Below, one piece after another: positions 11,824 through 20,194 of a DNA stretch of 64,000 bases. The notes beneath the pieces were generated by a model. The model worked only from the letters and a program-made list of their open reading frames with translations, searched no databases and was not told where the DNA came from. Within the stretch, counting starts at the first letter, position 1, and the number at the start of each line of letters is the position of its first letter. Made by a program: the position numbers and the translations under genes. Where the stretch lies: NCBI RefSeq assembly GCF_003258595.1, contig NZ_QHHQ01000008.1, forward strand, positions 124,001-188,000, in the 5' to 3' direction. Source of the DNA: Acuticoccus sediminis (GTDB taxonomy: Bacteria; Pseudomonadota; Alphaproteobacteria; Rhizobiales; Amorphaceae).

Positions 11824-12189
11824 ATGCGGGTTGTTGTGGTTGGCGCTCTCTATGGCGCACTTGCGGTAGGACTTGGCGCGATCGGGGCGCATGCGCTCGA
11901 CAGCAATTTCGTGCCGCAGAACGCCGAGATGTTCGACAAGGCCGTCTTCTACCAGCTCATCCATGCGCTGGCGATGGTGGCGATCGGTGGGCTGAAGGAC
12001 CGCGTGCTGCCGGTTCTTCTCGGCGCGGCGTCGTGGGCGTTCGGGCTCGGCGTGCTGCTGTTCTCGGGCTCGCTCTACCTGCTGGCTCTCGGTGGTCCGG
12101 CCGACGTCATGTATGCGACGCCGATCGGCGGCGTCCTCCTGCTGCTGGGCTGGCTGATCCTCGCCGTCGCCGCCGCGCGGCGCATGTAA
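11824..12189 (+). CDS. DUF423 family small membrane protein
   Basis: A 121-residue inner-membrane protein with four predicted helices, matching the DUF423 (YgdD/TMEM256-like) family. Diagnostic blocks are GAIGAHALDSNF near the N-terminus, YQLIHALAMVAIG in the second helix region, and the GSLYLLALGGP plus ATPIGGVLLLLGWL tail. No biochemical role is established. GAGG (11814-11817) precedes ATG 11824. A perfect 16-bp hairpin follows at once and probably ends transcription, so the gene is likely monocistronic. Confidence 0.9.
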   Translation: MRVVVVGALYGALAVGLGAIGAHALDSNFVPQNAEMFDKAVFYQLIHALAMVAIGGLKDRVLPVLLGAASWAFGLGVLLFSGSLYLLALGGPADVMYATPIGGVLLLLGWLILAVAAARRM

Positions 12190-12193
12190 GCGT

Positions 12194-12240
12194 CCGGCCG
12201 ACGGCGTCCGGATCCGCAAGGACGCCGTCGGCCGGCTTTC
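12194..12240 (+). terminator. Strong hairpin terminator after the DUF423 gene
   Basis: CCGGCCGACGGCGTCC (12194-12209) and GGACGCCGTCGGCCGG (12220-12235) are perfect 16-bp inverted arms around a 10-nt loop, followed by CTTTC. It starts 5 nt after the stop codon. The T-run is short, but the stem is very stable. Confidence 0.75.
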
Positions 12241-12507
12241 CCTCCTCACCGACGCCGCGGCTCGCAGCGTCGATGTGCGGCCCGCCGGCACGGACCCGGC
12301 GAGTGGCGCAGGACCGGGCCGAGGTGCATGTCGACCGTGCACCGCCCTCCGCCGCCATGCGACCGGCTTCGCCGGCGACGCGTCCCCTGCCGGCCGCGAA
12401 GGCCAGGCATCGCCAACCGGGCGCGGGCGCTTTCAGACCTACCGATCAACCCCTGGCGGCGCCTTCATCAACTCTGGGTTACCTGAGAATTCCGTCCTCG
12501 CCGCGTT

Positions 12508-12523
12508 GAAGTGTCAACACTTC
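12508..12523. promoter_or_regulatory. Operator-like palindrome
   Basis: GAAGTGT and ACACTTC flank a 2-nt centre, a perfect 7+7 dyad. Its size fits a dimeric repressor site, but no adjacent gene starts near it, so its role is unclear. Confidence 0.3.
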
Positions 12524-12735
12524 GGTCTCGCGGTCCAGGCGGATCGGAATCCGGCAGTTCGATGGCGCCGCCGGTCGCAGAGGCCATCAGCGGGTCAGCC
12601 GGACCCGGCGATGCGGGTCGCCATCCTGTTCCTGACTGTTGATAAGTGGTCGTGACGCCTGCTTTGCGCGCGGCTCAGATATGCGGATTTGTGTTGGGTC
12701 TCCGCAGAATACAGTAGGGAAGTCGCCTATATTTG

Positions 12736-12754
12736 TAGAATTCGAGATATTCTA
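12736..12754. promoter_or_regulatory. Inverted repeat in AT-rich segment
   Basis: TAGAAT (12736-12741) and ATTCTA (12749-12754) are perfect inverted arms around a 7-nt spacer, inside the AT-richer part of the intergenic island. It could be a regulator site or the remains of a mobile element. Confidence 0.25.
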
Positions 12755-13060
12755 AGTCGATCTCGGAATGTACATCTAAAGCTATTGTAAAAAAGCTCGA
12801 TTGATCTCGTCCGCTCCGGAAATGCGGCAAAACCATGATGGATCGCGGGGGATTTCGGTCGATCCCCGGGAGGGAAAGGGACGGATCGTCGGCAGGAAAA
12901 TACAGCTTTCGGTTGCATGCTCCGTGATGCCAGGCGCCACCGTCGGGTCACCTCATCGGAATATTCGGTAGATGCGTACCGGGCAGCGAAACAGCGCGTG
13001 CGACAAACCCACGCGTATCGCGCCGGTCTCACACATCTCGAAGCTGCAGGAAGCTTGATC

Positions 13061-13344
13061 TGGTGCCGCAGGGGAGGATTGAACTCCCGACCTCACCCTT
13101 CGTACCACTTCGGCTTTCGCCGCCGCACCGAGGTGCGTTCGTGGTCTGGACTATCCCTTCACCCTTTTCCGGGAACCGGAAGGAGGGTGCCGCCCGTCTA
13201 GTCTCTACACCGTTCCGCCAAGCGGACTTGGCTCGGGATTGGCATTTCAGCTTTCCCCGAGTTTGAGCGGTTTTCATCCCACGGTTTCCCGTGGGTGAGG
13301 CAATCTGTTACCAAGGGTGCGCTCTACCACTGAGCTACTGCGGC
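13061..13344 (-). tRNA. tRNA-Thr(GGU), interrupted by a group I intron
   Basis: The 5' exon (13344 down to 13310) and 3' exon (13100 down to 13061) join into a 72-nt tRNA plus an encoded CCA. The acceptor stem GCCGCAG/CTGCGGC pairs perfectly, the D-stem is GCTC/GAGC, the anticodon stem CACCC/GGGTG encloses loop TTGGTAA with anticodon GGT, and the T-arm is GGGAG-TTCAATC-CTCCC; the discriminator is A. This matches alphaproteobacterial tRNA-Thr reading ACC and ACU. The 209-nt intron lies between U36, the last anticodon base, and A37. ACC is a frequent Thr codon in this GC-rich genome, so if this is the only GGU copy, splicing is probably essential. Confidence 0.95.
13101..13309 (-). ncRNA. Self-splicing-type group I intron (IC3-like) in tRNA-Thr(GGU)
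   Basis: The 209-nt intron folds into a complete group I core. Numbering is from its first base. P1 pairs exon GGU plus intron AA with UUGCC (7-11), putting a U-G wobble exactly at the 5' splice site, loop CAGA. P2 is CCCACGG-GAAA-CCGUGGG (15-32). P3 is CCGCUC (40-45) with GGGCGG (115-120). P4 is CUCGGG/CCCGAG (49-54/73-78), then a short P5 and P6. P7 is GACUA (107-111) with UAGUC (157-161). P8 is CACCCU/AGGGUG (121-126/145-150). P9 is ACCAC/GUGGU with two inner hairpins, one GAAA-capped. The last base is G, as omega-G. The P7 region, GUGUAGAGACUAGACGG, closely matches my memory of the Azoarcus tRNA-Ile intron. There is no ORF. Confidence 0.93.
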
Positions 13345-13354
13345 AACGGGGGCG

Positions 13355-13383
13355 TCTATAGCCGCTCTCGGAGCGTCCGTCCA
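13355..13383 (-). promoter_or_regulatory. Probable promoter of the tRNA-Thr gene
   Basis: On the minus strand TGGACG (13383-13378) and TATAGA (13360-13355) are spaced by 17 nt, a fair sigma-70 pair, with the -10 box ending 10 nt before the first tRNA base at 13344. Confidence 0.45.
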
Positions 13384-13871
13384 GTACCCTCTGTCTCTCT
13401 TTCCACCGGCCCGAGCGCTGCCGGTGATTGCATCATTTTGTTTCCAAGGATATGAATGACATGCGGACAGAAGCAGATGGTTACCTGTGAACGTCACGTT
13501 TTTGCCGCGAACGCGGTGAGCTGAAGTCAAAGATACCGCCGAAACAGCGCTGCCCCGCGAGTTTCAAAGTTCAAGTTGGGATGATTCTAAGAATACGGTC
13601 TTGAGCGGCCAGGCTGTCATCTGCCTGCGGCGTCACCACAAACCCTATAAATAGTCATTTCTTTCGGTGGCTTTGTGTAGAGACTGGTCATTCTTGGGTT
13701 GTCCAACGCGGACGTATCCGTTAGTTGCACAGCAGCTAACTTGTTGTGGATGTTGCCTTTCGTCGATGACACCCGCAACACCCTGCCCCACTTGCCTGAA
13801 TTGAGGCGCCTCGCCATTCAACGCGTAATGGCAAGTGGGTCGGATCCGATCGGTCGAAGAGGACGTGGGAA
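13384..13871. other. Intergenic region between tRNA-Thr and the XRE regulator gene
   Basis: About 490 bp with no convincing gene; small frames on both strands lack family features. The part around 13560-13760 is less GC-rich than the surroundings. A near-perfect stem-loop lies at 13720-13740, GTTAGTTGC-ACA-GCAGCTAAC with one mismatch, about 130 nt before the regulator gene. It probably holds the regulator's promoter, but no clear -35/-10 pair could be assigned. Confidence 0.5.
13720..13740. promoter_or_regulatory. Near-perfect inverted repeat upstream of the XRE gene
   Basis: GTTAGTTGC and GCAGCTAAC (one mismatch) flank ACA. It is a candidate operator for the XRE regulator encoded 130 nt downstream, or a leader hairpin. 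Confidence 0.35.
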
Positions 13872-14339
13872 ATGTCGACAGCTGTAAGCGAGCCAAGTCA
13901 GATGAGTGAGCCGCGCTCAGAACCTGTTCCCAATCAGAGGTCGGCCAACTCCGTCGACGGACATGTTGGCTCCCGGGTGCGCCTCCGCCGGCTCGAGCTC
14001 GGCCTCAGCCAGGAGAAGCTCGCCGAGCAGCTCGGGATCACCTTCCAGCAGGTGCAGAAGTACGAGCGCGGCACCAACCGCATCGGTGCCAGCCGGCTCC
14101 ACCAGATCGCGATCGTGCTCCAGGCACCGATCACCTATTTCTTCGAAGGGGCCACTGACGCCGGGATCTCCCGCGTCAACGACGCCACGCCGCTCTCGCA
14201 GGCGCTGAGCGATCCGGCCACCGTCCGCCTGGTGCGCGCCTTCGCGACCATCTCCGATCCGCAGCTCAAGCAGAAGGCTGTCGGGATCATCGAGGCCATC
14301 GCCGAGACGCCGGCCCTCAAGAACGGCACGGACGGATAA
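13872..14339 (+). CDS. XRE family transcriptional regulator (PraR/SinR-like)
   Basis: DNA-binding regulator of 155 residues. A disordered N-terminus of about 30 residues precedes an XRE helix-turn-helix (about residues 32-86) that reads VGSRVRLRRLELGLSQEKLA, then GITFQQVQKYERGTNRIGA. This is the very conserved alphaproteobacterial subfamily including PraR/PhrR of rhizobia. The C-terminal part contains a short helix pair (PATVRLVRAFATISDPQLKQ). Relatives control quorum sensing, acid stress or biofilm genes; the targets here are unknown. It is followed by fumC 74 bp downstream on the same strand; whether they share a transcript is unclear. Confidence 0.88.
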   Translation: MSTAVSEPSQMSEPRSEPVPNQRSANSVDGHVGSRVRLRRLELGLSQEKLAEQLGITFQQVQKYERGTNRIGASRLHQIAIVLQAPITYFFEGATDAGISRVNDATPLSQALSDPATVRLVRAFATISDPQLKQKAVGIIEAIAETPALKNGTDG

Positions 14340-14413
14340 CGGATCCACGCTCAAGAGCGTTGGACCCCTGCCGAAAACTTGGTAACTGACGCGGGCACGC
14401 AAGAGGCCCGCTG

Positions 14414-15802
14414 ATGACCACCCGCACAGAAACGGATTCCTTCGGACCGCTCGAAGTCCCGAGCGAGCGCTACTACGGCGCTCAGACCGCCCGAAGCCTG
14501 ATCAACTTCAAGATCGGCGAGCAGAAAATGCCCGCCCCTCTGGTCCGCGCTCTCGGCGTCATCAAGAAGGCCGCCGCGCTCGCCAACAAAGAGCTCGGCA
14601 ACCTCGACGCCAAGATCGCCGACGCCATCGCCGACGCCGCCCAGGACGTGATCGACGGCAAACGGGGCGAGGATTTCCCCCTCGTCATCTACCAGACCGG
14701 CTCCGGCACGCAGTCGAACATGAACGCCAACGAGGTCATCTCGAACCTCGCGATCGAGCGTCTCGGCGGCGTGATCGGCTCCAAGGACCCGGTTCACCCG
14801 AACGACCACGTCAACCGCTCGCAGTCGTCGAACGACACGTTCCCGACCGCGATGCACGTCGCCGCCGCCGAGGAGATCACGCACAAGCTGATCCCGGCGA
14901 TGACGCACCTGCGCGACGCGCTGAACGCCAAGGCGGAAGAGTTCGCCGACATCATCAAGATCGGCCGCACCCATACCCAGGACGCGACGCCGCTCACCCT
15001 CGGCCAGGAATTCTCCGGCTACGTCGCGCAGCTCGACTTCGCGATCCAGCAGGTGACGGCCTCGCTGGGCGCCCTCTATCCGCTCGCCCAGGGCGGCACC
15101 GCCGTCGGCACCGGCCTCAACGCCAAGCCGGGCTTCTCCGAGGCGGTCGCCAGGCACATCGCCGAGATCACCGGGCTGCCGTTCGTCACCGCGCCGAACA
15201 AGTTCGCCGCGCTCGCCGGCAATGACGGCTACGTCGCCGCCCACGGCGCGCTGAACACCGCCGCCACCGCGCTCTTCAAGATCGCCAACGACATCCGCTT
15301 CCTCGGCTCCGGTCCCCGCTCGGGCCTCGCCGAGCTCTCGCTGCCGGAGAACGAGCCGGGCTCGTCCATCATGCCGGGCAAGGTCAACCCGACCCAGTGC
15401 GAGGCGATGACGATGGTGGCCTGCCGCGTGTTCGGGAACCAGACCACGCTGACGGTCGCCGGCAGCCAGGGCCACTTCGAGCTCAACGTCTACAAGCCGG
15501 TGATGGCGGACGCCTTCCTGCAGTCGACGCGCATCCTCGCCGACGCCTGCGTGAGCTTCACCGACAACTGCGTCGTCGGCATCGAGGCGAATCGCGACCG
15601 GATCAAGGACCTGATGGAGCGCTCGCTCATGCTGGTCACGGCGCTGGCGCCGGAGATCGGCTACGACAACGCCACGAAGATCGCAAAGACCGCCCACAAG
15701 AAGGGCACTACGCTGCGCGAGGAGGCCGTCGGCGGCGGCTACGTCACCGAGGAGACCTTTGACCGGGTCGTGCGTCCGGAGAAGATGACGGGTCCTTCGT
15801 GA
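14414..15802 (+). CDS. fumC: Class II fumarate hydratase
   Basis: TCA-cycle enzyme of 462 residues that reversibly hydrates fumarate to L-malate; class II enzymes are iron-free homotetramers. Family marks are the [14 protein letters not shown] block (near residue 96), [40 protein letters not shown] and the signature loop [11 protein letters not shown] with its catalytic serine. Length is typical. AGAGG at 14402-14406 precedes ATG 14414. The stop TGA overlaps the GTG start of a small DUF4169 gene, and a ribbon-helix-helix gene follows, a trio often kept together in alphaproteobacteria. Confidence 0.97.
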
Positions 15803-16445: not shown

Positions 16446-19400
16446 TCAGTCGGCGAGCGCCGGCTCGCGCGTGGCGCCGCCCGCCGGCCCCGGGCCGTCC
16501 GCGGCAGGATCCCCCGAGGGCTCGCGCGATTCGTAGGTCGTGACCGGCGGGTCGAGCGAGTGCGTGTTGCGGATGTAGTCGCCGACCGGGTCGGACGAGG
16601 CACCGGAATTCTCGGACCGCTGGGCGGGCGTCGCCTCCGCAGGGCCTGCCGGCGCCGCCGGAGTTGGCGCGCCGGTCCCGGCGCTCCGCCCGTCCTCCGG
16701 CGGCGCCGGGAGCGCGGGCGGGGGCGATGGGGTCGTTGCCCCGGCCGGGTCCGGGCCTCCGTCCTGCCCGGCCGAAGGGGCGGCCGGCGTCCCGGGCGCA
16801 ACGCCCAGCTCTTCCAGCGCGCGGGAGGACGGTGCGCCCTGGGCGTCGGCCTCGGCGGCCAGCGCCTCGTTGTCGCTCTCCACCGCCTCGACCAGCCGCT
16901 CGATGCTGCGCAGCGCCGCCCAGGCGGTGAGGCGCGAGACGTCCACGGCCCGGTCCGGCTCGCCCATCGGCCCGGCGAAGATCACGCCGATCGGCACCGC
17001 CGGCGTCCCGGAGACGATCGTGCGCAGCGAAACGTCGGCGCGGAGCTGCCACGCGCCGAGGTCGAACGTCGCCGTCGAGACCGTCAGCTCCTGCGGCGGA
17101 TCGAACGCGACGTGGCTGAGCCGCGCGGTCCCGTTGGCAATGGCGATGTCCGCTGTCAGCGTGTCGAATCGGGTGTCGGCCGCGCCGAGGTGCTGCACGA
17201 AGTCGTCGCGGACCTCTCCCTCCTGCGGCGCCGCGCCGGAGGCGTCGGGCCAGTCGAAGGGCGCGGCGTTGAAGGCGCGCAGCCGGCCGTCCGCCACGCT
17301 GAGCGTCCCTTCGCCCTCCAGTGCCGTGACGAGGTCGGCAACGGTGTAGCCGCGCGACATGAAGCGCGTCGCGAGCGACAGCGCCCCTTCGGCGACGGGT
17401 TCGCCGCCGGACGTCCACAGCAGCGGCGCAACGTTCGCGCCGGTGAGGTCGAACGCACCGCTCAGCTCCGCCGCGGCGCCGTTGCGCGCGATCTGGAGCG
17501 AGCCGCTCGCCTCGCCGTCCGCGAGGCGGCCGCTCGCGTCGGAGATGGTGAGGCGATCCCTGGCGAGGTCCAGCTTGAACCGGGCGTCGGCGAGGCTGTT
17601 GCGACCGAGCGCCAGGCTGTCGGCGGCGATGTCGAGCGTGACCGGGAGCGCCGGTCCCTCGATGCGTGCGAAGGCCGTGGCCGGCCACGCCGCGCCGTCC
17701 CCCGTGCCGGTCCAGGCGTCCGGGCCCAGGATCAGCGACGTCAGCGCCGCGAGGTCGGCCGCCCCGATGTCGAGCGATCCGCTGATCCCCTCGCGCGTCG
17801 CGCGCAGGCCTCCGGCGACGGCGACGCCGTCCACCATGCCGGAGATGTTGTCGAGCACGACCGCGTCCTCGGTGCGGACGTCGGCGCCCAGCGAGAGGGC
17901 GGCACCGGCCGGCAGCGGCAGATCGGTGAGGGAGGCGAGGGGGCCGAGCGTCTCGGCGTCGGCGGTCAGGTGGCCGTCGAGCCCGGTGTCCTCGCCGTAC
18001 CGCAGGCCGCCGGCATAGCCGAGCGTCGTGCCGAAGGCGGTAAGCCGGACCTCCGTGTCGGCACCCGTCGCGGGCGTTCCGTCGACGCGGACGGTCAGCG
18101 ATCCGGGTCCCGATCCCTCCGGCGGGACCAGGCCGAACTGCTGTGCCAGAATCGACGCGTCGGCGTTCGCGACGTCGAGCGAGAGGCTCGCCGGACGGCT
18201 CGTCCAGTCCGGGTCGAAGGGGTTCCCCGCCGTCTCGAGCGTCAGCGACGTCCCGTTGGCGCTCCCGTCGAGCGAGACGGCGAGCTTCGGCGCGTCCGGC
18301 GCGGTGTCGCCGACGATCCGGAAGGAGAAGTCGCCCGGCGCGAGGTGCGGGGCGATCGCGCCGAACCGCCGCGCCATGTCGCTGAGCGGGAAGAGCTGGC
18401 GCACGCTGGCGGCGAGCGCGTCGCCGTCGACGACCTTGATCGTTCCGGTGATGGAGCCGATCGGCTCGTCCTTCAGATCGCCGAGCTGGCCGATGGCGAA
18501 TACCGATATGCCGCCGAACCGGTCCGCCTCCAGCGCGTCGATCTGCAGCGTCCCGTCGGCGTAGCTGGCGTTGACGTTGAGCGTGGACCCTTCCACCGAA
18601 CCGATCACCACCCGGTCCACCGTCAGATTGACGGAGACGTCGGTGCCGTTGGTGGGCACGAGGCGGCGGGGCATGATCGCGACGGCGTCCATCACGTCGT
18701 CCACGTCGACGATGGGCGCTCCGAGCGAGATGTCGACCTTGCGGCCCGCCGGCGTCGAGCGCATCCGCCAGCGCCCGGTGGCGCGACTGTCGCCGACACG
18801 GATGGAAAGCCGCCGCGCGTCGAGCGATTGCGAGGTCGCGTCGATGTCCGCCTCGACGAGGATCGGGTCGACCACGGCCCCCGCGAACTCCTCTCCCGAC
18901 CACCAGTGCGCGAAGATCGAGGGCTGCGAGGCGGATACGCGCACCGCTCCCGCGTACCCGTCAGACGTGATGCGGCCGTTGGTCTCGACGTGGGTGTCGC
19001 CCGGCAGCAGCGCCTCCGCGCGCTCCACCGTGAGCCCGCTGGCACCGGTCGCGAGCCGCACCGAGACGTCCCGTGTCACCGCGCCGCCGGCGATCAGCGT
19101 GCCGATGTCGATGTCGGCGGTGATCGGCACGTTCGGGAGCGTCAGGGAGCCGAGGCCGGAGACGGCGGGGGAGAGGTGGTCGACGAGCCGGTCCAGCATG
19201 TCCGCCGGGGCCGTCGGCTCCTCGGTCTCGCGCAGCGCGCGGTCCACCCGGTCGAGGTCCATCTGGCGGGCGGCGAAGGCGAGGGCGATCGGATCGGATT
19301 TCGTGAGGTTGTAGACCGCGCTGCCCGCGAGCTGCATCGGCGTATCGCCCTCGCCGTAGCTCAGCGTGGCGCGCCCGAGCCGCAGCGCGACGGGGTCGAG

Positions 19401-20174
19401 CGCCATGTCCCCCTGGATCGACCACGGCACGCCCGACGCGCTGGTGACGGCGAACGACCCTGCGAGGCCCGGCGCCGTCGGCTGGGGCGACAGGGCGCCG
19501 TCGAACGTCATCGCGACGCTCGTCCCCACCGGCGCGAGGCGGACGGACAGGGGGATCGTGCCATTGTCCAGCGCACCGGCCGAAATGCTGACGTTCTGGG
19601 TCCAGCCGTCGGCCTTGAGGCTGCCGGCGAGGTTGAAGGGCCCCTTCAGGGACCGCGCGCTTCCCGAGAGGGTGATGTTGTCCAGGGTGCGCCGGACGCC
19701 GGTCCGGTCGTCGACCACCACCAGCGTGGCGTCGGTGAGCGTGACGGTGTCGATCATCACGTCCGAGACGTCGAAATAGGACGCGATGGTGTGCTCGGCG
19801 GTCAGGTCCGGCAGCTCCATCCGCCCGTTCGGGGAGATGCGGGCGAAGATGATCGGCGCCTCGATGGCGAGGTTGGTGATCTGGATCTCGCGCTTCAGCA
19901 GCGGCGTCAGCTCGAGCTGCATCTCCACCCGCCGCGCCATCATCAGCGGGCGGGACGCGGGGCCGAGAGTGACGTTCTCCACGGTGACGCGCGGACGCGG
20001 CAGGATGCGCACGTCCGCGCCGCCGGCGAAGGCGACCTCCGTGCCCAGCGCGCGCTCGGCGTTCGCCTCGATCTGCGCGCGATAGAGGGTCCAGTCGATG
20101 AAGTGGGGGCCGACGACAGCGGCGGTCAGCGCCAGCACGATGGCCACGCCGACGCTGATTATGAACCAATTCAC
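16446..20174 (-). CDS. AsmA family envelope protein
   Basis: Very large envelope protein of 1,242 residues. An N-terminal membrane anchor (VNWFIISVGVAIVLALTAAV) is followed by the AsmA-type start GPHFIDWTLYRAQIEANAER and a long beta-rich periplasmic repeat region. The AsmA_2-type part lies around residues 800-1050. The C-terminal 130 residues are rich in Pro, Ala and Glu and likely disordered. AsmA-like proteins are bridge-like and linked to lipid transport and outer-membrane integrity. GTG 20174 is favoured over GTG 20183 because GAGG sits about 7 nt upstream of it. It is preceded by a hairpin that may separate it from the dehydrogenase gene. Confidence 0.85.
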   Translation of the reverse strand: MNWFIISVGVAIVLALTAAVVGPHFIDWTLYRAQIEANAERALGTEVAFAGGADVRILPRPRVTVENVTLGPASRPLMMARRVEMQLELTPLLKREIQITNLAIEAPIIFARISPNGRMELPDLTAEHTIASYFDVSDVMIDTVTLTDATLVVVDDRTGVRRTLDNITLSGSARSLKGPFNLAGSLKADGWTQNVSISAGALDNGTIPLSVRLAPVGTSVAMTFDGALSPQPTAPGLAGSFAVTSASGVPWSIQGDMALDPVALRLGRATLSYGEGDTPMQLAGSAVYNLTKSDPIALAFAARQMDLDRVDRALRETEEPTAPADMLDRLVDHLSPAVSGLGSLTLPNVPITADIDIGTLIAGGAVTRDVSVRLATGASGLTVERAEALLPGDTHVETNGRITSDGYAGAVRVSASQPSIFAHWWSGEEFAGAVVDPILVEADIDATSQSLDARRLSIRVGDSRATGRWRMRSTPAGRKVDISLGAPIVDVDDVMDAVAIMPRRLVPTNGTDVSVNLTVDRVVIGSVEGSTLNVNASYADGTLQIDALEADRFGGISVFAIGQLGDLKDEPIGSITGTIKVVDGDALAASVRQLFPLSDMARRFGAIAPHLAPGDFSFRIVGDTAPDAPKLAVSLDGSANGTSLTLETAGNPFDPDWTSRPASLSLDVANADASILAQQFGLVPPEGSGPGSLTVRVDGTPATGADTEVRLTAFGTTLGYAGGLRYGEDTGLDGHLTADAETLGPLASLTDLPLPAGAALSLGADVRTEDAVVLDNISGMVDGVAVAGGLRATREGISGSLDIGAADLAALTSLILGPDAWTGTGDGAAWPATAFARIEGPALPVTLDIAADSLALGRNSLADARFKLDLARDRLTISDASGRLADGEASGSLQIARNGAAAELSGAFDLTGANVAPLLWTSGGEPVAEGALSLATRFMSRGYTVADLVTALEGEGTLSVADGRLRAFNAAPFDWPDASGAAPQEGEVRDDFVQHLGAADTRFDTLTADIAIANGTARLSHVAFDPPQELTVSTATFDLGAWQLRADVSLRTIVSGTPAVPIGVIFAGPMGEPDRAVDVSRLTAWAALRSIERLVEAVESDNEALAAEADAQGAPSSRALEELGVAPGTPAAPSAGQDGGPDPAGATTPSPPPALPAPPEDGRSAGTGAPTPAAPAGPAEATPAQRSENSGASSDPVGDYIRNTHSLDPPVTTYESREPSGDPAADGPGPAGGATREPALAD

Positions 20175-20194
20175 GCAGTTCACCTCGTTTTCGC

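Follow-up and report, generated by a model that had tools for sequence, protein, structure and literature searches.

A small, very probably self-splicing group I intron in the only tRNA-Thr(GGU) gene found in an Acuticoccus sediminis genome

The Azoarcus tRNA-Ile(CAU) gene harbors a small group I intron, inserted between positions 36 and 37, whose three-base guide pairs with the anticodon. Group I introns in tRNA-Arg(CCU) genes of Alphaproteobacteria (Agrobacterium) were reportedly described by Paquin, Heinfling and Shub in 1999. For the intron in tRNA-Arg(CCU) of Bartonella bacilliformis, splicing has been reported both in vivo and in vitro (PMC7717549). One review of bacterial group I introns deals with tRNA genes and mentions the tRNA-Ile intron of Azoarcus (PMC3984707), a second covers Leu(UAA), fMet and alpha- and betaproteobacterial cases (PMC4033280), and work on cyanobacteria reports Arg, Gly and Lys tRNA hosts with very short inserts (PMC5733544). 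Boundary rules for group I introns, a U.G pair and a terminal G, are given in a study of tmRNA introns (PMC11915505), and a group I intron database exists (PMC11835236).

The earlier note on this DNA had remarked that tRNA-Thr(GGU) is not among the classic hosts, and the partial texts above indeed name Leu(UAA), fMet, Ile(CAU) and Arg(CCU). A group I intron in a bacterial tRNA-Thr(GGU) is described in none of the matches listed in the open-access literature, subscription journals lying outside this search. The kind of intron is known, and tRNA-Thr(GGU) as its host seems unreported. Such genes may also lie beyond the reach of routine annotation: in the available description of tRNAscan-SE 2.0, self-splicing introns are excluded from the bacterial training set and their detection is outside the design, with fMet and Ile2 named as cases (PMC8450103). 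The A. yangtzensis genome paper used tRNAscan-SE, and the word 'intron' is absent from its text (PMC5747140).

We analyzed a 64-kb window of the A. sediminis genome, which is the whole stretch of DNA under study. On its minus strand, a tRNA-Thr(GGU) gene (13344-13061) is interrupted between U36 and A37 by a 209-nt insert (13309-13101). The insert is a group I intron. The 5' exon (13344-13310, 35 nt) ends with the anticodon G34 G35 U36, and the 3' exon (13100-13061, 40 nt) runs from A37 to the encoded CCA; joined, they form a 75-nt tRNA-Thr(GGU) including CCA, which ARAGORN reports as Thr(ggt)i(36,209) when introns are allowed. The boundaries proposed in the earlier note are correct to the base. 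Its identification of both halves as tRNA-Thr(GGU), and of a group I intron after the anticodon, was borne out by a covariance-model match (below the curated cut-off), covariation, exact reconstitution of the tRNA and an uninterrupted gene in the sister genus. We are highly confident that the only tRNA-Thr(GGU) gene detected in the genome carries, in its anticodon loop, a small group I intron that has no recognized ORF and very probably splices itself.

All elements of the intron lie on the minus strand. The anticodon GGU (13310-13312) provides the exon strand of P1 and places U36 in a U.G pair at the 5' splice site, as seen from fold and covariation. Its partner is the internal guide sequence UUGCC (13299-13303), recognized from an exon-blind alignment and guide pairing counts: GCC pairs with GGU to form P1, and UU may pair with A37A38 to form P10. 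The P2 hairpin with its GAAA loop (13274-13298) has double changes in 6 of its 10 pairs and 86.3% of cells paired. Covariation defines P3 (5' strand CCGCUC, 13265-13270; 3' strand GGGCGG, 13190-13195), while fold and covariation together define the P4-P5-P6-P6a domain (13209-13260), the P8 hairpin (13160-13189) and a P9 domain with two sub-hairpins (13104-13145). P7 (5' strand GACUA, 13199-13203; 3' strand UAGUC, 13149-13153), which we take to be the guanosine site as in group I introns, is located by the Rfam match and covariation. The intron closes with a terminal (omega) G at 13101, placed by the ARAGORN boundary and the genus comparison. The core elements listed in the earlier note (the U.G pair at the 5' splice site, P2 with a GAAA loop, P7 and the terminal G) are all present.

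Standard detection is less straightforward. With default settings, ARAGORN finds no tRNA in the whole window; the expectation that a tRNA finder would miss this gene therefore holds for default ARAGORN and fails once the intron option is used. Two further intron-mode calls, both tRNA-Ala (15090-15296 and 16657-16769), were taken as chance because they fall inside the fumC and 16446-20183 reading frames. Rfam at the gathering threshold returns no match anywhere in the window. In a permissive 601-base search, Intron_gpI (RF00028) aligns over the full model (1-253) to 13342-13126 on the minus strand, with an E value of 3.1e-9 and a score of 41.6 bits, below the curated cut-off of 50. Five other Thr introns lie on both sides of this cut-off, two above (57.5, 55.0) and three below (48.3, 41.1, 37.8). 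The precursor has a predicted minimum free energy of -131.1 kcal/mol (z -4.78; none of 200 shuffles as low), and this fold combines the tRNA arms with P1, P2, P3, P4/5, P6a, P8 and P9; P6 is absent, and P7 cannot appear because it crosses P3. Two mechanical ORFs overlapping the intron (82 and 94 aa) match no Pfam family, which agrees with the earlier claim of an intron without ORF and led us to reject a homing-endonuclease intron. A promoter and terminator scan gave no signal above chance. In 8/8 genus genomes, DUF423 flanks the interrupted gene on one side and an HTH_3 gene with fumC behind it on the other (11824-15802 in the window).

Sequence comparison reveals constraint on both exons and intron structure. 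Across eight genus members, none of the 75 exon columns varies, compared with 106 of 240 intron columns. The 62 named pairs are paired in 96.2% of cells, and double changes occur in 13 pairs and 23 cells (shuffles, 5.7 and 6.9; 0/500 as high), the structures having been drawn on the window's own row. Pairing is weaker at the two outer P2 pairs and in inner P8, which are often unpaired in this set. The U.G pair at the 5' splice site is found in 8/8 members; P1 comprises only three exon pairs, and the adjacent A-U pair fails in one member. A terminal G is present in 19/19 Thr introns, for which the boundary search itself demanded G. A wider alignment of 24 introns with Thr, Leu, Arg and Lys hosts, which was the basis of our covariance model R1, shows 27 core pairs paired in 100% of cells, with 38 double-change cells against 7.1 after shuffling; 11 pairs have double changes, and none of 500 shuffles is as high. 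This structure, too, was drawn on the window's own row and is to that extent favored over slid controls.

The source genome (G000; 7.76 Mb, 44 contigs, 97.25% complete) contains this intron as its only Intron_gpI match at E 0.001. Of 42 tRNA genes found by the tRNA model, all typed by ARAGORN, none is Thr(GGU), whereas Thr(UGU) and Thr(CGU) are intact. Since tRNA-Ile(GAU) and Ala(UGC) are likewise missing among the typed tRNAs, the assembly has gaps, and a second Thr(GGU) copy may have been overlooked in this genome alone. This is unlikely, because the other seven genus genomes also lack an intact arm: allowing up to three mismatches, an intact Thr(GGU) anticodon arm occurs in 0/8 Acuticoccus genomes and once in each of two genomes of the sister genus, whereas the reversed pattern, used as a control, occurs in none of the ten. 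In 8/8 Acuticoccus, the complete precursor is found at a single locus per genome, every one interrupted. In seven ORFs of the window, 189 Thr codons divide into 91 ACG, 87 ACC, 6 ACU and 5 ACA. With no intact Thr(GGU) among the 42 tRNAs, splicing would have to work for ACC and ACU to be decoded, and tRNA-Thr(GGU) would presumably be essential. A conserved place for the intact sister-genus gene was considered and rejected: in 12-13 kb from the two genomes (G008, G009), only an HTH homologue turned up, lying about 4 kb away in a different relative orientation.

We infer splicing, its chemistry and P10 from these observations. In the proposed pathway, the tRNA arms and the P3-P8 core of the precursor would fold together, and the guide GCC would pair with the anticodon GGU so that the U36.G pair marks the 5' splice site. 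A guanosine in P7 would attack after U36; the freed 3'-OH of U36 would attack after the terminal G, aided by pairing of UU with A37A38, and the joined exons would constitute a normal tRNA-Thr.

Judging from anatomy, covariation and the lack of another copy in the assembly, the intron is very probably active. Alternatively, the gene might be a tRNA pseudogene in decay, its intron dead and ACC and ACU read by another tRNA. A score below the Rfam cut-off, the incomplete assembly and the existence elsewhere of a decayed relative (second match in G405) could be cited in favor; that relative, L177, retains a recognizable tRNA-Leu-like 3' half only. Against decay speak exons identical in 75/75 columns of eight genomes, compensatory changes within the genus, and the lack of another Thr(GGU) gene in G000 or an intact arm in any genus genome, which make it very improbable. 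We give still less credence to removal of the insert by proteins at a bulge-helix-bulge, as in archaea, or to an assembly artefact. Anticodon-adjacent sites are also used by protein-spliced introns elsewhere, as stated in the accessible part of a review (PMC4033280), but a group I ribozyme core with covariation speaks against both views and led us to reject an archaeal-type tRNA intron, and the insert occurs in eight genus genomes, including three named strains, as well as in other families, which argues against an artefact. Finally, the intron may have gained a regulatory use, for instance coupling the supply of tRNA-Thr(GGU) to GTP or Mg2+ level. Such a role would suit a tRNA that reads a common codon and of which no second copy was detected; nothing in the sequence points to it, however, and similar introns occur in many different tRNAs, so that we hold regulation to be about as improbable as decay. 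An active, self-splicing intron remains our preferred reading.

The guide sequence varies with the host tRNA. In an introns-only alignment, free of exons and thus of circularity, the block preceding P2 is TTGCC in 11/11 Thr(GGU) rows, TTGAG or TGGAG in 10/10 Leu(UAA) rows and TTGGG in the single Arg(CCU) row; the blocks of Leu(CAA) and Lys rows are different once more. TTGCC pairs with GGU/AA, TTGAG with CUU/AA and TTGGG with CCU/AA (slash, splice site), and TGGAG retains the P1 part. At site 36/37, the guide is therefore complementary to the anticodon itself. In the tree set (see below), all 19 Thr guides form 3/3 pairs with the Thr tag and none (0/19) does so with that of Leu or Arg; thanks to G.U pairing, the Leu tag is matched by Arg guides as well (21/21). 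The own-host counts are partly circular, the best pairing with the own exon having been chosen. The automatic pick is unreliable for two hosts: it gives TTGGG in 10/21 Arg introns and fails in 3/5 Leu(CAA) introns, which are long and in which GGUC can be read further in.

Model R1 detects relatives widely. At E 1e-5, it matches 49/397 order, 48/385 class and 41/398 phylum genomes, the samples partly overlapping. Hosts were assigned from exon patterns and reading; ARAGORN intron mode mislabels several of them. The 113 introns retained for a tree occupy, at 36/37, Arg(CCU) (21), Thr(GGU) (19) and Thr(CGU) (2; L174, L175); Leu(UAA) at 34/35 (53) and Leu(CAA) at 33/34 (5; L049, L167, L168, L178, L179); and, among Lys tRNAs, Lys(UUU) at 35/36 (6, one doubtful), Lys(CUU) at 35/36 (4; L129, L132, L135, L180) and Lys(UUU) at 34/35 (3). 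Individual Lys(UUU) loci are L165 and L169-L172 at 35/36 and L162 and L176 at 34/35; the G765 intron is labelled Lys 35/36 in the tree, 34/35 being the better reading. Lys, Leu(CAA) and Thr(CGU) hosts are not named in the literature examined, seen in part, except for the cyanobacterial Lys claim. The tree omits G520 (Leu) and G403 (Arg), for which the rule failed although the host of each is evident on reading; the Thr introns of G470 and G483; duplicates L048 and L087; G719; the second matches of G405 and G403; G826; and eleven phylum loci with hosts that the rules left uncovered or miscalled (L189, L198-L203, L206, L209, L210, L212). Outside it, L200 reads as Leu(UAA). By reading, L189 (G1057), L203 (G890), and L198, L202 and L209, all from beyond the class, represent tRNA-Arg(UCU) at 36/37, a CAU tRNA at 36/37 and CAU tRNAs at 33/34.

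The Thr(GGU) intron is not unique to the A. sediminis genome. Carriers number 11/397 in the order sample (eight Acuticoccus, G162, G257, G390) and 6/385 in the class sample (G000, G519, G571, G666, G679, G756), where G470 and G483 also show the 5' half only, their contigs ending before the 3' exon. Whole interrupted genes extend over at least six alphaproteobacterial family codes (f1, f2, f14, f126, f175, f193) and three named records. A pattern scan of the named collection returned 10 matches: five Acuticoccus records, Pseudaestuariivita rosea, two alphaproteobacterial metagenome-assembled genomes (MAGs) and two (L082, L083) rejected as chance because CTTGGT is absent upstream. In the phylum sample, a Thr(GGU) host was assigned nowhere outside G000, with eleven loci unassigned by rule and one (G826) outside the set; viral contigs gave no match to the Thr pattern.

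Relatives also occur on mobile DNA. Among 72,556 plasmid records, 1272, mostly enterobacterial, contain a stretch 60-80% identical to the intron. In five plasmid regions examined (including L223, L224 and L225), the intron lies beside an aac(3)-II type gene in the four gammaproteobacterial ones and not in that of Bradyrhizobium. The intron of plasmid pCTX-M3 (L084, 4001-4194) sits within a complete tRNA-Leu(UAA); in the tree it groups, with weak support, with introns of the window's order. A further relative, in Gordonia phage Daredevil (L086, 2913-3150), interrupts a tRNA-Lys(UUU)-like gene with 5/7 acceptor pairs; the phage integrase gene is some 600 bases away.

How did the Thr(GGU) lineage arise? 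Host labels change 12 times on the 113-intron tree, compared with a mean of 55.1 after shuffling; lineages thus stay with their host, with few switches. For Thr(GGU), the unconstrained tree, in which bootstrap values are unsettled and several branches are long, implies four changes. Keeping all 19 of these introns in one group improves the score by 27.8 log units, and the resulting tree is not rejected (p-AU 0.817); the Thr-targeting lineage may therefore have arisen once. Two genomes carry two introns each, Lys(CUU) and Thr(GGU) in G519 and Leu(UAA) and Thr(GGU) in G756; within either genome the two lie apart on the tree and hence are no recent copies of each other. The 21 Arg introns form their own clade (support 100/99) with no Thr intron inside, and membership in the Arg(CCU) lineage was rejected on this basis and for the guide, GCC rather than GGG.

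A reading that we consider quite possible, if short of an even chance, is that one old Thr(GGU) intron descended vertically in Alphaproteobacteria and was lost many times, with no transfer between lineages. The single clade permitted by the tree is consistent with this, as is the intron's presence in all eight sampled Acuticoccus. However, the distribution is patchy: both sister-genus genomes have intact genes, and carriers make up only the 11/397 and 6 (+2 by 5' half)/385 noted above. The family as a whole occupies four adjacent sites, 33/34, 34/35, 35/36 and 36/37, in Leu(UAA), Leu(CAA), Lys(UUU), Lys(CUU), Thr(CGU), Arg(CCU) and Thr(GGU). We infer that the Thr(GGU) lineage arose by retargeting of a same-family tRNA intron to a new anticodon loop. 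More tentatively, and with somewhat greater doubt than attaches to vertical descent, we may picture one family of small introns that reads anticodon loops through a three-to-four-base guide and hops by rewriting it, the Thr(GGU) lineage being one such retargeting that later passed from one alphaproteobacterial family to another and, in Acuticoccus, was trapped in the single copy of an essential tRNA.

Annotation can overlook Thr(GGU) as a host: here, both default ARAGORN and the Rfam cut-off miss the gene, and such genomes therefore look devoid of a tRNA for ACC. Host tRNAs with matching guides also make intron host switching by reverse splicing directly testable. More interesting than the new host itself is the broader picture, in which guides are rewritten to suit one anticodon loop or another.

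The described systems differ in their likeness to the Thr(GGU) intron. Cyanobacterial tRNA and tmRNA group I introns share with it structural RNA hosts and differ in the hosts themselves and, for tmRNA, in a T-loop site, according to the accessible text of two studies (PMC5733544, PMC11915505). The tRNA-Leu(UAA) introns have the same core and are the commonest relatives (53 of 113 tree introns), but are inserted at 34/35 rather than 36/37 and use the guide GAG(U). Relatives are filed under subgroup IC3. The tRNA-Arg(CCU) introns of Agrobacterium and Bartonella (BbgpI; the Bartonella sequence stood outside the comparison) share site 36/37, the core and the use of the anticodon as a P1 strand, whereas their host, their guide GGG for CCU and their separate clade set them apart. 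The Azoarcus tRNA-Ile(CAU) intron, likened here by description, is similar in size, site and guide, and differs in its host.
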